DNA of 64,000 nt from Marinobacter sp. LA51 (GTDB lineage Bacteria; Pseudomonadota; Gammaproteobacteria; Pseudomonadales; Oleiphilaceae): NCBI RefSeq assembly GCF_030297175.1, contig NZ_AP028070.1, positions 496,001 to 560,000 on the forward strand. Direction: 5' to 3'. Positions 3,147 through 38,424 of the stretch are shown piece by piece. Made by a program: the position numbers and the translations under genes. Under the pieces are notes generated by a model, which ran no database searches, had not been told where the DNA came from, and saw only the letters and a program-made list of their open reading frames with translations. The first letter of the stretch is position 1; the number at the start of each line of letters is the position of its first letter.

Positions 3147-4361
3147 TCAGGCCAAAAGCTCGGTGAATGAATAGTAGGTTAGCACGTCGCCGATCCGGAC
3201 TTCGCTGTTCTCGGGAATCACTGCCAGACCATCGGCCCAGCAGGCGGAGCTGAGCATGCCGGAACTCTGATTGGGGTGCGCAGCCAAACAGAGCTCTCCG
3301 GCCTTATGCTCTTTGCGAGTCCGGAAAAAGCCCCGGCGGATTGAGGGTGAAGGAACCTCAAAGTCCGCTGGCAGCCGCTCGCCGACCGGATGAATGCGCG
3401 GCTGGCCCTGGCACTGACGGATAAAGGGCATCACGATCATGGCAAAGGTGACCAGAACGGCAGCTGGGTTGCCGGGTAGTCCGAGCAGGGGAGTGCCGTC
3501 GATCGCGCCGAAGGCCAGTGGTTTGCCCGGCTTTATCGCCAGGCGCCAGAGCGACAGGTTGCCGGTGGCCTCCAGTGCGGCACGCACGTGATCCTCCTCG
3601 CCTACGGAAACCCCGCCTGTGGTGATGATCAGGTCTGCCTGGGCGGCGGCTTTTTTCAGCGTGGTCTCGGTGGCGGCTCGGTTGTCGGCCAGACCTTCGC
3701 ACAGGACCACTTCGCAGGCGGCGTGCTTTAGCAGGCCCAGCAGAGTAAATCTATTGGTGTTGTAGATCTGTCCCGGGCCCAGGGGTTGCCCGGGTTCCAC
3801 CAGCTCGTCTCCGGTGGTGAGGATAGAGACTTTGAGCTTGCCCATGACGGGCACCTGAGCCACGCCCATGGAGGCAAGTAGCCCCAGCTCCTGAGCGCGC
3901 AGGCGGGTGCCTCGGGGCAAGGCCAGATCGCCCTTGTTCAGATCCTGCCCCCGGCGCCGGATGTTCTGGCCTGGCTCAACGTCTGTCTGTACCCGGATGC
4001 CGGTTTCAGAAACATCGACCTGTTCCTGCATGACCACGGAATCGGCTCCGGCTGGGATCTCCGAGCCGGTAAAAATGCGGGCAGCGGTACCTGCGGCCAG
4101 TGGCGTGGGTGCGGTGCCGGCAGGGATGCGGGCCGAAATCGGCAGAGGCTTGGTTGCCTGAAGGTCCTGTTGGCGCAGGGCGTAGCCATCCACCGAGCTG
4201 TTGTCCGCCGGTGGCACATCTGCCGGGACCCTCTGATCTTCAGCCAGAATACGATCCAGAGCATCGGGCAGCGCCACAATTTCGGTGCGACTGATCGCCG
4301 GTGCTCGGGATAGCAAGTGACCCAGGGCATCTTCCAGGGGCGTCAGGTCAGGGCTGACCAT
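3147..4361 (-). CDS. moeA: Molybdopterin molybdenumtransferase MoeA
   Basis: MoeA inserts molybdate into adenylylated molybdopterin, the last common step of molybdenum cofactor synthesis. The 404-residue protein shows 'ADNSSVDGYALR' near residue 50, 'IFTGSEIPAGAD', the MPT-binding segment 'ITTGGVSVGEEDHVR' and 'GLPGNPAAVLVTF', and has the C-terminal domain IV. The frame is open 67 codons further upstream. ATG 4361 is chosen because AAGGAGAA lies 7 nt before it and the upstream residues do not resemble the family. The gene is downstream of moaB with a 32-nt gap. Confidence 0.95.
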   Translation of the reverse strand: MVSPDLTPLEDALGHLLSRAPAISRTEIVALPDALDRILAEDQRVPADVPPADNSSVDGYALRQQDLQATKPLPISARIPAGTAPTPLAAGTAARIFTGSEIPAGADSVVMQEQVDVSETGIRVQTDVEPGQNIRRRGQDLNKGDLALPRGTRLRAQELGLLASMGVAQVPVMGKLKVSILTTGDELVEPGQPLGPGQIYNTNRFTLLGLLKHAACEVVLCEGLADNRAATETTLKKAAAQADLIITTGGVSVGEEDHVRAALEATGNLSLWRLAIKPGKPLAFGAIDGTPLLGLPGNPAAVLVTFAMIVMPFIRQCQGQPRIHPVGERLPADFEVPSPSIRRGFFRTRKEHKAGELCLAAHPNQSSGMLSSACWADGLAVIPENSEVRIGDVLTYYSFTELLA

Positions 4362-4393
4362 GAGCGGTTCTCCTTGTTGTTCGCTGAATGCAC

Positions 4394-4966
4394 TCAATTG
4401 GTCGCGCGGGTGGCGATCTGTTCGTTTACCCGGTGCAGGGGCTTGTCCGGTTTGCGCAAAACCAGCCCGGCAAAGTTGCAGGGGGAGTGTCGACTGTCCA
4501 GCTGATTGCGCAGGATACCGTTCCAGCCTGTCCGGCAGGCGCCAGTGGAACCCGGTAGACAAAAGATAACGGTGTGGTTGGATAAACCGCCAAAGGCCCG
4601 GGATTGGATGGTGGAGCTGGCGATTTCTGCGGCTGACAGGCGTCGGAATTCCTCACCAAAGCCATCAACGGTCTTGTCCAGCAGTGGTCCAACCGCTTCT
4701 GGCGTGCTGTCGCGTTCAGAAAAACCGGTGCCGCCCGTGATCAGTACGGCATGCACGGACGGGTCGGCGATCCAGTGGGCGATCAGGGCGCGTATCAGGT
4801 ACACGTCGTCCGGGAGGATGCGCCGGGCTGCCAAGTGATGTCCTGCCTCGAGCAGATTGTCGGCCAGAAACTGGCCCGAGGTGTCTTGCTCGGGGCCGCG
4901 GCTGTCAGAGACGGTCAACAGGGCGATGTTAAGGGGTTTGAATTCGCCGGCGAGGTCGATGCCCAT
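4394..4966 (-). CDS. moaB: Molybdenum cofactor biosynthesis protein B (MoaB/MogA-type adenylyltransferase)
   Basis: A 190-residue MoCF_biosynth-fold protein that adenylylates molybdopterin ahead of MoeA. Visible motifs are 'IALLTVSDSRGPEQDTSGQ' at the N-terminus, 'VLITGGTGFSERDSTPEAV' in the middle and 'CLPGSTGACRTGW' near the substrate site. The C-terminal 'LRKPDKPLHR' is also seen in MoaB proteins. It is the first gene of the four-gene Mo-cofactor run and diverges from rho across a 373-bp gap. moaA and moaC are not in the window, so the block covers only the later steps. Confidence 0.93.
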   Translation of the reverse strand: MGIDLAGEFKPLNIALLTVSDSRGPEQDTSGQFLADNLLEAGHHLAARRILPDDVYLIRALIAHWIADPSVHAVLITGGTGFSERDSTPEAVGPLLDKTVDGFGEEFRRLSAAEIASSTIQSRAFGGLSNHTVIFCLPGSTGACRTGWNGILRNQLDSRHSPCNFAGLVLRKPDKPLHRVNEQIATRATN

Positions 4967-5120
4967 GGCGTTAGCTCCGTAATTTTGGGATAAATACTGA
5001 TAACGTAAGTATCCGGATCACGGCCGAGGATTGGAAGAGGTCTCCGGCCAAGCCTGCCAGGCGGCGTTGGTCACAGGGATCAGGATCCGGGTTAAGTTGG
5101 CGTTAATTTGGACAGTTTAC

Positions 5121-5150
5121 TTGACATTCGCCAGTGAGGTGGTCGATGAT
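5121..5150 (+). promoter_or_regulatory. Putative sigma-70 promoter of rho
   Basis: A consensus -35 TTGACA (5121-5126) is followed after 18 bp by GATGAT (5145-5150, 4/6 match to TATAAT). Predicted initiation near 5157 leaves a leader of about 180 nt before the rho ATG. The rest of the moaB/rho gap (4967-5120) shows no other clear signal. Confidence 0.45.
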
Positions 5151-5156
5151 CTTCGT

Positions 5157-5339
5157 TGCCTAGGGGACGGTTGTTCCCACTCTCTGGCTTCAGACCCTTT
5201 TAAACCCGGATTCCATCTACACCCGGTTGCTCCATCTGGCCAGCAACAAGCTCAACGACGTTAATTTTTGATCAATCCGTGCAGGGACACCCTGTCATCC
5301 CACATTCGATTACTTCCATTCCTGATAATCCAACAAACT
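5157..5339 (+). promoter_or_regulatory. Long C-rich rho leader, possible rut site
   Basis: The predicted untranslated leader is pyrimidine-rich. In 5174-5237 I count about 25 C against 8 G, with many YC dinucleotides, the composition of Rho utilisation sites. No Shine-Dalgarno is visible just before the rho ATG (5340). E. coli rho is autoregulated by Rho-dependent attenuation in its leader, so the same is inferred here. No leader peptide was identified. Confidence 0.4.
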
Positions 5340-6602
5340 ATGAATCTTACTGAACTCAAGCAGAAGTCCATGCCCGAATTGCTCGAAATTGCGCAAGAGA
5401 TGGGCCTCGATAACCTGGCTCGTTCGCGCAAGCAGGATGTCATCTTCACCATTCTGAAGAGACACGCCAAGGGCGGCGAAGACATCTACGGCGATGGCGT
5501 ACTGGAAATTCTGCAGGACGGTTTTGGTTTCCTCCGTTCCGCCGACGCTTCCTACCTGGCGGGACCGGACGATATTTACGTCTCTCCGAGCCAGATCCGT
5601 CGTTTTAACCTGCGTACCGGTGACACCATTGCCGGCAAGATTCGCCCGCCCAAAGACGGCGAGCGTTATTTTGCCCTGTTGAAGGTTAATGAAATTAACT
5701 TCGACAAGCCGGACAACGCCCGTAACAAGATCCTGTTCGAGAACCTGACGCCGCTGTTCCCGGAAGAGCGCCTGATGCTTGAAGCCGGTAACGGCAGCAC
5801 CGAGGACCTGTCCTCCCGGGTGCTCGATCTGGTGGCGCCTATCGGCAAGGGCCAGCGTGGCCTGATCGTGTCGCCGCCCAAGGCCGGTAAGACGCTGCTG
5901 ATGCAGAGCATCGCCCAGTCGATTACCCGCAACAACCCGGAATGCCACGTGATGGTGCTGCTGATCGACGAGCGTCCGGAAGAAGTGACCGAGATGCAGC
6001 GCACCGTGCGCGGCGAGGTTATTGCTTCCACGTTCGACGAGCCACCCGCGCGGCACGTTCAGGTTGCCGAGATGGTGATCGAGAAGGCCAAGCGCCTGGT
6101 TGAGCACAAGAAAGACGTGGTGATCCTGCTGGATTCCATTACCCGTCTGGCTCGTGCCTACAATACCGTGATCCCGTCCTCCGGCAAGGTTCTGACCGGT
6201 GGTGTTGATGCCCACGCCCTGGAGAAGCCTAAGCGGTTCTTCGGTGCAGCCCGGAATGTGGAAGAGGGCGGCAGCCTGACCATCCTGGCGACGGCACTGG
6301 TCAACACCGGTTCCAAGATGGACGAGGTGATCTACGAGGAGTTCAAGGGCACCGGTAACATGGAAGTGCACCTGGACCGCAAGATCGCCGAGAAGCGTAC
6401 GTACCCAGCGCTTAACATCCGTAGCTCCGGCACCCGTCGTGAAGACCTGCTGATGACTGAGGCGGACATCCAGCGTGTGTGGATCCTGCGTAAGCTGCTG
6501 CATTCGATGGACGACGATACCGCAGCCATCGAGTTCCTGCTGGACAAGCTCCGGGACACCAAGACCAACGACGAGTTCTTCCAGTCGATGAAGCGTCGTT
6601 AA
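5340..6602 (+). CDS. rho: Transcription termination factor Rho
   Basis: Hexameric RNA-dependent ATPase/helicase that terminates transcription at C-rich, ribosome-free RNA. The 420-residue length from ATG 5340 matches the E. coli protein. Order: N-terminal helical domain ('[19 protein letters not shown]'), cold-shock RNA-binding domain with 'DGFGFLRS' (near residue 60), Walker A '[11 protein letters not shown]' (near 180), Walker B '[16 protein letters not shown]' (near 260), Q-loop and R-loop. The frame is open to a TTG at 5268, but the upstream 24 residues are unlike Rho. No clear Shine-Dalgarno precedes the ATG. Confidence 0.97.
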
Positions 6603-35493: not shown

Positions 35494-36930
35494 TCATAGC
35501 AGTGGCGCGAGCAGGCGGATGGCACGGCAGGTCAACCGGAACAGGATGGACCTGTCCTTGTAGTCGCGCTCGGTCATCAGCCGGCAGTTGTCCAGGTCGT
35601 CTTCGAGCATGGACTCAACGCTGTTGATGAAATGAGGCGCGGTGGTTACGGCAGTGATTTCAAAGTTCAGCCGCATTGACCGGTTGTCCAGGTTGGCCGT
35701 GCCCACCGCGGCGTAACGGTCATCCACCAGAACGACCTTCTGATGCATGAAGCCCGGCTGATAGCGGTAGATGCCAACACCGCTTTTACAGGCCTGAACC
35801 AGATAAGAGTACGCCGCCAGGCCAATCAGCCTGCTGTCGGATTTCTCCGGAATCATGATGCGCACATCGACACCACGAAGGGCAGCCAGCTGCAGCGCGT
35901 TCATGATTTGAAAGTCAGGCACGAAGTAGGGCGAACAGATCCACAGGCGATTGCGGGCGTTGTTGATACAGTTCAGGAAGAACAGGGTGCAGGTTTCCCA
36001 GTCATCCGCCGGCCCGGTTGGCAGCATCAGTACCCGATCCTCACCGGCGGTGTTGTTCTGCGGCGCCCAGTCCAGGTCCGGGCACTCATCACTGGCCCAA
36101 TTCCAGTCCTCCAGCCAGGTCAGCTGCAGCCCGGTCACCGCCGGGCCCTCAATCCGGCAATGGGTATCCCGCCAGGGTTCCTGGTCCATGGCAGTGCCAA
36201 GGTATTCGTCGCCGAGATTGATGCCGCCGACAAAGCCGATGGTGCCATCGCAGACCAGCAGCTTGCGGTGGTTACGGAAGTTAATCTGGAACCGGCGTCG
36301 GCGAACGTTGCCATCACCAAAGGAGGCTACCCGGGCGCCGGCAGCGGTCAGCTGCTTCAGATAGCTTTTCGATAGCCCGACGCTGCCGATGTTGTCATAC
36401 AGGAAACAGACCTCCACGCCCTGAGCCAGTTTGCGCTCCAGGATCGACTTGATGCGGCGGCCAACCCGGTCGGAACGGACAATGTAGAACTCCATCAGAA
36501 TATAGCGGGTGGCGTTTTCCATGGCTTCGAACAAGGCTTCAAACGTGGCCTCTCCGTCTCGAAGCAGGGTGCAGCGATTGCCCTCGGTAAAGGGTTGGCG
36601 GCCCAGTTTGCACAGCACCTGGAGTTCGTCGGTAAAGTACTGGTCGGCCGGCGCCGCGATGGACGTGGTTTGGCGCTCAAACCGGTTCAGCAGGTTGGTC
36701 AGGCCCCGGTTCCCCATGCGCCGGGCCCGGACGTAACCTCCGAAACGATAGCGCCCGAACAGCGCAAACAGCGGCACCGCCACGTAGGGCAAACCGAGCA
36801 GGCCGATGATCCAGGCGATGGCGCCCTGGGCGGTGCGATAGGTCAGCAGAATCCGGTAGATGCAGGCCAGTGCGGCCAAGTAAAGCAGGCCAAGCGCCAC
36901 TGCCACCAGAGAGACATTTTCCATAATCAC
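35494..36930 (-). CDS. cls: Cardiolipin synthase
   Basis: Inner-membrane phospholipase-D-superfamily enzyme that condenses two phosphatidylglycerols into cardiolipin. The 478 residues begin with two transmembrane helices (about 8-28 and 38-60, 'AIAWIIGLLGLPYVAVPLFA'), then carry two HKD motifs: 'NFRNHRKLLVCDGTIGFVGG' (near 220) and 'MHQKVVLVDDRYAAVGTANL' (near 395). It begins inside the end of the upstream AraC gene with an ATGA overlap of 4 bp, so the two are translationally coupled. Family member ClsA-type by membrane anchors. Confidence 0.93.
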   Translation of the reverse strand: MIMENVSLVAVALGLLYLAALACIYRILLTYRTAQGAIAWIIGLLGLPYVAVPLFALFGRYRFGGYVRARRMGNRGLTNLLNRFERQTTSIAAPADQYFTDELQVLCKLGRQPFTEGNRCTLLRDGEATFEALFEAMENATRYILMEFYIVRSDRVGRRIKSILERKLAQGVEVCFLYDNIGSVGLSKSYLKQLTAAGARVASFGDGNVRRRRFQINFRNHRKLLVCDGTIGFVGGINLGDEYLGTAMDQEPWRDTHCRIEGPAVTGLQLTWLEDWNWASDECPDLDWAPQNNTAGEDRVLMLPTGPADDWETCTLFFLNCINNARNRLWICSPYFVPDFQIMNALQLAALRGVDVRIMIPEKSDSRLIGLAAYSYLVQACKSGVGIYRYQPGFMHQKVVLVDDRYAAVGTANLDNRSMRLNFEITAVTTAPHFINSVESMLEDDLDNCRLMTERDYKDRSILFRLTCRAIRLLAPLL

Positions 36931-38009
36931 TTATCTGTTTCCGAAGGGGCTGAGGCCCCGGATGTCGGGTGGGTGCGGGCCAGCTGATTGGCGCGGTACT
37001 GGGCCGGCGCCGTGCCGGTCCAGCGTTTGAACGCGCGGCTAAAGGCGCTGAGTTCCGAAAATCCCAGCAGGAAGGCGATTTCACCCAGGGCGTAGTGATC
37101 TGCAGCGACATAGCGTAGAGCCTTGTCCTTGCGAACTTGCTCGACCAGATCGTGGAAGCTGAGCCCCTCCCGCTTCAGTTTTCGATACAGGGTCTGGCGG
37201 CTCATGTGACACTGCCTCGCCAGGCTGTCGGCATCAATCCTCTCCGTGGCCATCTGCTTGGAAATCAGGCGTCGGATCTTGCGGCCGAATGAGCGTCTCG
37301 GTTGCAGCCGCGCCAACACCGAGTTCACCTGCTTCAGTACCGCGGAGTATACGTAGGGATTGCGGCGGGGGATGCCATGACTGAGATGGCGACTGTCGAA
37401 GGCCAGCCGGGTAGAGACACAGTCAAATGTCACCGGGCCACCCAACAGGGTTTCATACTCGCCGGCGTAACTTGGGCGCGGATGAGCGATCTCGACCCAC
37501 TCGGCCTGAATCTCCGGGTGAATGAAGTGACGGGTCCGGCTCAGCGCTGCTGCAAGGGTTCGGTCCATGTCCTGCCGGGAGTAGTGGTTGGGGGCATCCG
37601 GTTGCCAGGTCAGGATGGCCTCTTCGCCCGTCTGCTCAAAACTCAGGGTCACCGATTCGTTGATTAACCGGTGCAGGCGGACATACTGGGTCACCGCTTC
37701 ACCCAGGGTGTCGCAGTTGAAGAACACGTGGCCCACCAGCCCCATGCGTTCCGGATCGACTACCAGGCCGGCGTGCAGACCCACGGCCGGATCACCGGTT
37801 ACCTGCTCAGCGTAGTCCCACAGGCGGTAGTGAGCCGGCGCCGGTATCCTCAAATCCGGATCGGCCAACGCCTGCAAGTCCATGCCAATGATCTGTTGTA
37901 CCCGGGCTGTGTCCAGCAGGCCCTGGCTCTGGAGGTAATGCACCAGAGCCAGCGTACTGGAGGCGGCCACCAGGGGTGTGTGGTTGTTTTCTGACGCAGC
38001 AGAGATCAA
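36927..38009 (-). CDS. AraC-family transcriptional regulator (OruR/Arabinose_bd type)
   Basis: A 360-residue regulator. The N-terminal ligand-binding domain (about 20-200: 'ALVHYLQSQGLLD', 'DPAVGLHAGLVVDPERMGLV') is of the Arabinose_bd type seen in OruR-like regulators. The C-terminal double helix-turn-helix (about 255-345) shows 'DADSLARQCHMSRQTLYRKL' and 'ALGEIAFLLGFSELSAFSRA' with the end 'FKRWTGTAPAQYR'. It overlaps cls by 4 bp and diverges from a 30-codon ORF. TGTCA direct repeats with AraC-type spacing lie between the two, so it likely controls itself with cls and/or the small gene. Ligand unknown. Confidence 0.9.
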   Translation of the reverse strand: MISAASENNHTPLVAASSTLALVHYLQSQGLLDTARVQQIIGMDLQALADPDLRIPAPAHYRLWDYAEQVTGDPAVGLHAGLVVDPERMGLVGHVFFNCDTLGEAVTQYVRLHRLINESVTLSFEQTGEEAILTWQPDAPNHYSRQDMDRTLAAALSRTRHFIHPEIQAEWVEIAHPRPSYAGEYETLLGGPVTFDCVSTRLAFDSRHLSHGIPRRNPYVYSAVLKQVNSVLARLQPRRSFGRKIRRLISKQMATERIDADSLARQCHMSRQTLYRKLKREGLSFHDLVEQVRKDKALRYVAADHYALGEIAFLLGFSELSAFSRAFKRWTGTAPAQYRANQLARTHPTSGASAPSETDK

Positions 38010-38057
38010 GGCGTATTCCCGATGGTTAACAAACTTTCATCTGGGTTTGATACAAAA

Positions 38058-38094
38058 TGTCAAGCGAATGAAACCGCCTGTCAACGGTTTGTCA
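38058..38094 (+). promoter_or_regulatory. Putative AraC-type operator: three TGTCA direct repeats
   Basis: TGTCAA at 38058-38063 and 38079-38084 are exactly 21 bp apart (two helical turns), and a third TGTCA (38090-38094) is 11 bp further. AraC-family dimers often bind tandem half-sites of the form TGnCA at 21-22 bp spacing. The last copy lies inside TTGTCA (38089-38094), a possible -35, with only a weak -10-like ATTAAG near 38111-38116, as expected for an activator-dependent promoter. Confidence 0.6.
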
Positions 38095-38160
38095 TGGCAA
38101 CAACGATAGCATTAAGTCATCAGGTTGATGCAATGGAACGGTGTTTTCAGGAGGAGTTAT

Positions 38161-38253
38161 ATGGAACAGGAAATTTTTGTACCGCACAATGAGACCGAAC
38201 GGACGAACGTTATGGCGCTCGCCGAGTACTTGAACAGCATCTTCTATTGCTGA
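38161..38253 (+). CDS. Orphan 30-residue small protein
   Basis: ATG 38161 to TGA 38253 encodes 30 residues beginning MEQEIFVPHNETER and ending AEYLNSIFYC. AGGAGGAG (38149-38156) lies 4 nt before the ATG, among the strongest ribosome sites in the window. A small hairpin (CGGCG TAA CGCCG, 38260-38272) and a strong intrinsic terminator (38281-38309) follow, so it has a complete gene architecture. The peptide is acidic at the start and hydrophobic at the end, with a C-terminal Cys and no signal peptide or transmembrane helix. I recognise no family. A regulated small protein or a modified precursor peptide are possibilities; no modifying enzyme is nearby. Confidence 0.65.
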   Translation: MEQEIFVPHNETERTNVMALAEYLNSIFYC

Positions 38254-38280
38254 GTCCTTCGGCGTAACGCCGACGACTGA

Positions 38281-38309
38281 AAAAGCCGGGCCTTGGCCCG
38301 GCTTTTTTG
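38281..38309 (+). terminator. Intrinsic terminator after the 30-codon gene
   Basis: GCCGGGCC (38286-38293) and GGCCCGGC (38296-38303) form a perfect 8-bp G+C stem with a 2-nt T-T centre (in practice a slightly larger loop), followed by TTTTTT (38304-38309) and preceded by six A's. It insulates the small gene from the esterase gene. Confidence 0.92.
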
Positions 38310-38424
38310 TGCCTGTACTTTGGTTCCAGAAGGACGATCACGGCCAGGCAAAATTTGCGCGCTGCACTGGCGGTGGTAATGTAACCGGTCAGAAACCACC
38401 CGCTAAACCGGAGATCGTCTACCC

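Follow-up and report, generated by a model that had tools for sequence, protein, structure and literature searches.

A conserved 30-codon gene with an AraC-type operator faces a presumed AraC-family activator in Marinobacter and related genera

Results

A conserved small-protein gene faces an AraC-family regulator

We find that a 30-codon open reading frame in a Marinobacter genome is, judged on its pattern of codon constraint, a genuine protein gene, and that its control by the divergently transcribed AraC-family regulator is well supported in silico. The reading towards which we lean is that the AraC protein is an activator, probably responsive to lipids, and that the small protein which it switches on is cytosolic and helical and acts on a protein of lipid metabolism. 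The unit lies in a window of 64,000 nucleotides (C1:496001-560000 of the 3.77-Mb genome), with an alpha/beta hydrolase gene downstream of the small-protein gene. The features are:

35494-36930, minus strand: PLD-type cardiolipin-synthase gene (cls), by domain match; a neighbour outside the core unit
36927-38009, minus strand: AraC/XylS-family regulator, presumed activator, with Arabinose_bd (PF12625) and HTH_18 domains; start codon putative
38048-38084, plus strand: AraC-type operator, a direct repeat of TGATACAAAATGTCAA (38048-38063) and TGAAACCGCCTGTCAA (38069-38084) with a 21-bp period, from alignment and mismatch scans
38090-38094, plus strand: third TGTCA, not conserved
38107-38112, plus strand: −10 box TAGCAT, 22 nt past the operator, a distance shared by all 51 aligned loci
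38149-38156, plus strand: Shine-Dalgarno AGGAGGAG; an SD-like motif is present in 54 of 54 distinct loci
38161 (ATG) to 38253 (TGA), plus strand: small-protein gene, 30 codons (MEQEIFVPHNETERTNVMALAEYLNSIFYC), from the ORF list, profile matches and dN/dS
38283-38310, plus strand: intrinsic terminator, 9-bp stem and T-run (hairpin 38283-38304), by hairpin prediction

An earlier note on this DNA had placed the ORF, the Shine-Dalgarno motif and the terminator exactly here, and had read the facing genes as an AraC-type regulator coupled to a cardiolipin synthase; the domain matches agree.

The 30-codon frame is under codon-level constraint

Comparison of 53 distinct 30-codon coding sequences (a 29-codon member, L018, was excluded) gave a median dN/dS of 0.13 over 926 usable pairs; the shifted frames of the same sequences gave 1.67 and 1.13. 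Pooled pN/pS values in this set were 0.24 in frame versus 1.73 and 1.13 in the shifted frames, and differences from the window sequence at codon positions 1, 2, and 3 amounted to 15, 15, and 45%. A terminator-like hairpin follows the stop codon in 53 of 54 distinct loci, the exception being the locus of G015. A longer ORF starting at TTG 38125 (42 aa) is not favored, as the distance from the −10 box to the ATG varies (53-61 nt) and the leader is poorly conserved.

Structure prediction (mean pLDDT 88, pTM 0.47) gives the product an extended start and a helix over residues 11-27. Across five members, net charge ranges from −3 to −6 and mean helix hydrophobicity from −0.18 to 0.16, values that are not those of a hydrophobic transmembrane helix, and inspection revealed no hydrophobic leader or transmembrane stretch. 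Helix amphipathicity did not exceed that of shuffled sequences in any of the five at the 5% level, with hydrophobic moments near those of the shuffles, and the helix therefore has no marked docking face. A membrane-active helix is thus disfavored by charge, hydrophobicity and amphipathicity alike, and an acidic protein lacking clear amphipathicity argues for a protein partner over the membrane. Conservation spans most of the protein's length. The C-terminal Cys singled out by the earlier note is indeed present and common, yet not invariant, with W, A, G, N, R or I taking its place in relatives. The same note's description of the peptide as belonging to no known family holds for the family models, since searches to an E-value of 10 matched none of three members to an NCBIfam or Pfam family, but not for the protein collection, where relatives are already entered: we found 84 matches of 29-65 aa, the named ones being hypothetical proteins. 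A PDB search returned four weak matches (E of 1.5 or more), none convincing.

A 21-bp direct repeat overlaps the −35 position

Between the small-protein gene and the divergent AraC gene, two TGnnACnnnnnGTCAA half-sites form a 21-bp direct repeat, the second of which overlaps the −35 position. The own-genus consensus, aligned on the first half-site, reads TGaTACAAAATGTCAAgcgnnTGggACaGcctGTCAAcGG, 13 nt, AACGATAGCAT. The spacing does not vary among the 51 loci aligned (of 54 distinct loci, three did not fit the strict anchor); in these loci, anchored on the first core, the half-site cores TGTCAA and GTCAA are always 21 bp apart. The earlier note had listed TGTCA at 38058, 38079 and 38090, spaced by 21 and 11 bp. 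All three copies are present in the window and the 21-bp pair proved constant, whereas the third copy, at 11-bp spacing, is found in 10 of 51 loci and was rejected as part of the operator. Mean pairwise identity was 83% for the operator and 98% for the −10 region, compared to 74% for the coding sequence and 39% for the spacer.

Using a looser pattern, we located the operator upstream of the small protein in all but one of 54 distinct own-genus loci. The window contains a single match, with 0 mismatches, where 0.04 sites would be expected at up to 3 mismatches. Beyond the genus, an operator (0-2 mismatches) precedes all 20 small-protein genes sampled, 18 from the other genera of the same taxonomic family and two from the family f7, and for each of them 0 of 200 mononucleotide shuffles was as good; as a control, five of five f7 paralogues outside AraC control scored at chance. 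A TATAAT-like peak lies 21 nt past the operator in other genera and families, compared to 22 nt in the own genus. A direct-repeat operator over the −35 with fixed spacing to the −10 is, in silico, the arrangement of class II activation.

Operators with 0-1 mismatches occur in exactly those 30 of 37 own-genus genomes that carry the AraC gene, always at the small protein, and the seven genomes that lack AraC have none. Ten further own-genus hits all carry 3 mismatches, compared to 11 hits for a reversed-pattern control. Judged on close operator matches, the small protein looks like the regulator's main target; no lipid gene of the own genus is tied to the operator except the non-essential neighbor cls.

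The regulator itself is 96% identical to its counterpart in Marinobacter similis, to which the present genome is close, and scores well above cutoff for both domains (Arabinose_bd, N-terminal, 139 bits versus 27.6; HTH_18, the C-terminal double HTH, 73.1 bits versus 33.6). VirS and CdpR are its top PDB matches by sequence as well as by fold, and its N-terminal domain matches that of VirS with a TM score of 0.82 by target. Fatty-acid-bound Rns and ToxT are also among the fold matches, mainly through the DNA-binding domain, so this likeness carries little information on the ligand. Separately, the N-terminal domain gave weak H-NOX fold matches, with TM scores of 0.5-0.6 when normalized by target and about 0.3 when normalized by query.

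The small protein and the regulator co-occur across the family

The small-protein profile matched in 142 of 163 genomes of the family and in 16 of 16 genera, although three of the 142 matches are weak, decayed or truncated at a contig end; an AraC match was found in 138 of 163. Both occur in 137 genomes and neither in 20, leaving one genome with AraC alone (G895) and five with the small protein alone (Fisher p 5e-20, uncorrected for kinship). Genomes not named individually were derived by subtraction, and AraC absence is not absolute, given that the searches scored the best 5 or 12 candidates per genome. Since the two genes mostly adjoin, a single deletion may take both, and co-loss is weaker evidence than it appears. 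The homologue search and dN/dS comparison that the earlier note had proposed both came out in the ORF's favor, and operator, fixed −10 spacing and co-occurrence together uphold, on comparative grounds, its suggestion of a regulated small protein under the facing AraC protein.

Within the own genus, a search with an E limit of 10 found the small protein in 32 of 37 genomes, weakly in one, and it is present in 37 of 37 named AraC loci (one under the name Halomonas). Relatives of 30-43 aa occur in each of the family's 15 other genera, most of 30-37 aa and few reaching 43. A class-level search of 369 genomes found, besides the own genome, one weak match within a 1076-aa frame. An order-level search with an E limit of 0.1 matched 29 of 390 genomes, with full-length, short-frame matches in f1 and f7 and one possible in the genome G038; the remainder are mostly fragments within other frames. 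Of two G038 and two G054 matches, one from G038 (43 aa) is a plausible distant relative and the others look like chance.

Individual genomes show how the unit comes apart. In G025 AraC is gone, cls is kept and the small-protein frame lacks a start codon; in G858 operator and small protein are kept beside an AraC gene reduced to an 86-aa remnant; G857 has a small protein cut by the contig end; and G894 carries a divergent member with no AraC match. Five small-protein-free genomes that we inspected (G004, G006, G026, G029 and G179) retain cls and the hydrolase gene at least partly, and G006 also retains AraC fragments. In g410 the operator stays with the small protein, about 6 kb from araC. G015 has an intact small protein with neither AraC nor operator, and three of the four small-protein paralogues in G042, from f7, lack an operator; the small protein can thus persist without the AraC regulator. 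The G015 locus (L171) has lost cls along with AraC and the operator; 5′ of its small-protein gene lies a short ORF (MFVADKSSG...), together with TTGTAT...CATAAT, which may be a new promoter. The f7 genomes G042 and G084 (L092, L093, L096, L097, L098, L217) each hold four scattered paralogues, most without an operator, and a divergent type ending in YFAN occurs in f7 genomes and in G894.

Cardiolipin synthase is a less constant neighbor. In G389 the AraC gene, operator and small protein persist with no cls within 12 kb (tblastn with the window cls as query). Of the family's other genera, 15 in all, three have cls directly adjoining AraC (g415, g23, g421), and in loci of three more it lies 1.6-5 kb away (g417, g418 and g410 G784); for the remaining genera, the stretches that we read, three of them short contigs, revealed no cls. 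We therefore rejected cls as a functional partner. A role for the AraC-cls coupling that the earlier note pointed to is not supported, with cls lacking AraC in G025 and AraC lacking cls in G389.

Related regulators are associated with fatty-acid-synthesis genes

Comparison with related regulators links the same operator to lipid genes. In f7, an AraC relative sits at the end of a cluster of fabA, fabB, fabV, a fused acetyl-CoA carboxylase (ACC) and ACP genes, with the operator before fabA. In G084, one AraC gene goes with operators before both fabA and a 34-aa small-protein gene, the latter operator being perfect and its gene lying beside an acyltransferase. In f38 (G109), AraC lies beside ACP-fabV-fabB-fabA with the operator again before fabA and with no small-protein match. 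A second copy of AraC adjoins fatty-acid-synthesis genes in two genera of the small protein's own family (g410 and g419) and an ACP gene in another (g418), and fabA is preceded by an operator in G785 (0 mismatches) and G893 (4 mismatches). Altogether, the operator was present at five of five fabA genes tested elsewhere (0-4 mismatches), and in each case none of 200 mononucleotide shuffles equalled the match. No operator with up to 3 mismatches was found in L240, L242 or L243, stretches without a recognized fabA, nor in L241, which has a match at 4 mismatches. In G895, the family's one genome with AraC and no small-protein match, the operator (L245:3651-3687) is followed after 21 nt by TACAAT and then by an AMP-binding gene (3769-5457), adjoining and convergent with AraC, that is most like fatty-acid-CoA ligases and falls below NCBIfam cutoffs.

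In a tree of AraC proteins rooted by choice on G109, from which L036 and L238 were excluded for want of a full-length ORF, the small-protein-linked regulators form one clade with support of 91/94, slightly under the tool's high-support mark, and the regulators linked to fatty-acid synthesis fall outside it. The fatty-acid association is drawn from related regulators and, after divergence, may not hold for the present one.

The neighborhoods also contain two further genes of note. Inside the AraC-linked fabA-fabB-fabV-ACP cluster of f7, a single ORF of 1510-1521 aa (L170:8045-12610 in G042, L184:6917-11449 in G084) joins carboxyltransferase, biotin carboxylase and biotin carrier domains into a single-chain acetyl-CoA carboxylase, to our knowledge unusual for this class. 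In G109, a fatty-acyl-CoA-reductase-like gene with a Male sterility NAD-binding domain (L204:3787-5331) lies a few kilobases from the AraC-linked cluster.

Discussion

In the mechanism that we propose, the AraC protein would bind the 21-bp direct repeat, its promoter-proximal half-site overlapping the −35, and would recruit RNA polymerase to a promoter whose own −35 is poor, thus acting as an activator instead of a repressor. The resulting short mRNA would end at the terminator hairpin and encode an acidic, cytosolic 30-residue protein with an extended start bearing an IFVP motif, followed by one helix. The regulator's signal would most likely be a fatty acid, acyl-CoA or related lipid, because other members of its lineage seem to drive fatty-acid-synthesis genes via the same operator. 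The small protein, which probably serves fat or membrane metabolism, would most likely dock on a protein involved in fatty-acid or phospholipid metabolism, adjusting it as the signal rises.

A different use of the same parts would be a feedback loop in which AraC activates the small protein, and the small protein binds and damps AraC as Aar does with AggR, with other targets reached through weak or unrecognized sites. AraC-activated small proteins that act back on their activator have precedent (PMC4038620), and the dedicated pairing over 16 genera and the short, acidic, helical product fit such a loop. We nevertheless consider it possible but less likely than action on lipid metabolism, because G015 keeps an intact small protein without AraC, f7 genomes hold several paralogues mostly without an operator, and G109 and the AraC copies linked to fatty-acid synthesis have no adjoining small protein of this profile; moreover, a regulator whose sole strong target was its own inhibitor would serve little purpose. 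That the transcript acts as a regulatory or dual-function RNA, with the small protein secondary, is improbable: it is short, terminated and, by its predicted promoter, strongly controlled, but constraint tracks the codons, third positions being three times as variable as the other two, conservation of the leader is poor, and the 64-kb window contains no Rfam match. More improbable still is an exported signal, an antimicrobial or membrane peptide, or a type I toxin. Small size and an aromatic C-terminus would suit such a product, but the acidic charge, the shuffle-like hydrophobic moment and the lack of any leader or transmembrane stretch on inspection do not. The peptide signal raised by the earlier note is further disfavored by conservation over most of the length and by replacement of the terminal Cys in relatives.

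Action on a lipid-metabolism protein would set this pair apart from the systems that it most resembles. According to PMC4038620, the ANR proteins, such as Aar of enteroaggregative E. coli, have genes switched on by an AraC-family activator; the operator and promoter geometry of the present gene fit AraC activation in silico. However, ANR members are given there as 39-80 aa compared to 30 aa here, the hosts differ, small proteins without an AraC partner exist, and no NCBIfam or Pfam family matched, similarity to Aar/orf60 being judged by family models alone. The regulator shares PF12625 and HTH_18 with CdpR and VirS, for which we found no dedicated small-protein target described, and its operator of two TGnnACnnnnnGTCAA half-sites differs from the CdpR and VqsM consensus given in PMC8151288. 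Likened by their published descriptions, not by sequence, SphR (sphingosine; PMC5150637), APR1 (which answers to n-alkane C32; PMC11784139) and GliR (glycerolipid genes; PMC8151288) are AraC-type activators near the −35 with a lipid tie, the first two answering to long hydrophobic molecules, and the SphR site, two 15-bp repeats with a 7-bp spacer, has a period similar to 21 bp. The targets described for these three are enzymes, whereas here the apparent target is a small protein. We found no account of the AraC-small-protein pair in the open-access literature, PF12625 papers included.

Few proteins so small have their coding sequence, operator, fixed promoter and terminator kept together over 16 genera, and because its transcription factor has a single evident target, the small protein's role can be tested directly. 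A bolder and less probable possibility, which we put forward tentatively, is that these proteins are a new family of about 30 residues that directly adjusts Gram-negative fatty-acid or phospholipid synthesis, under a dedicated lipid-sensing AraC activator split by duplication from a regulator of a fatty-acid-synthesis operon. On this view, the f7 regulator would control enzymes and small protein together, and the pathway would carry its own brake or tuner in the form of the peptide. If the lipid reading is right, the pair would add a small-protein layer to the control of bacterial fatty-acid synthesis and provide a named operator with which further targets may be found.
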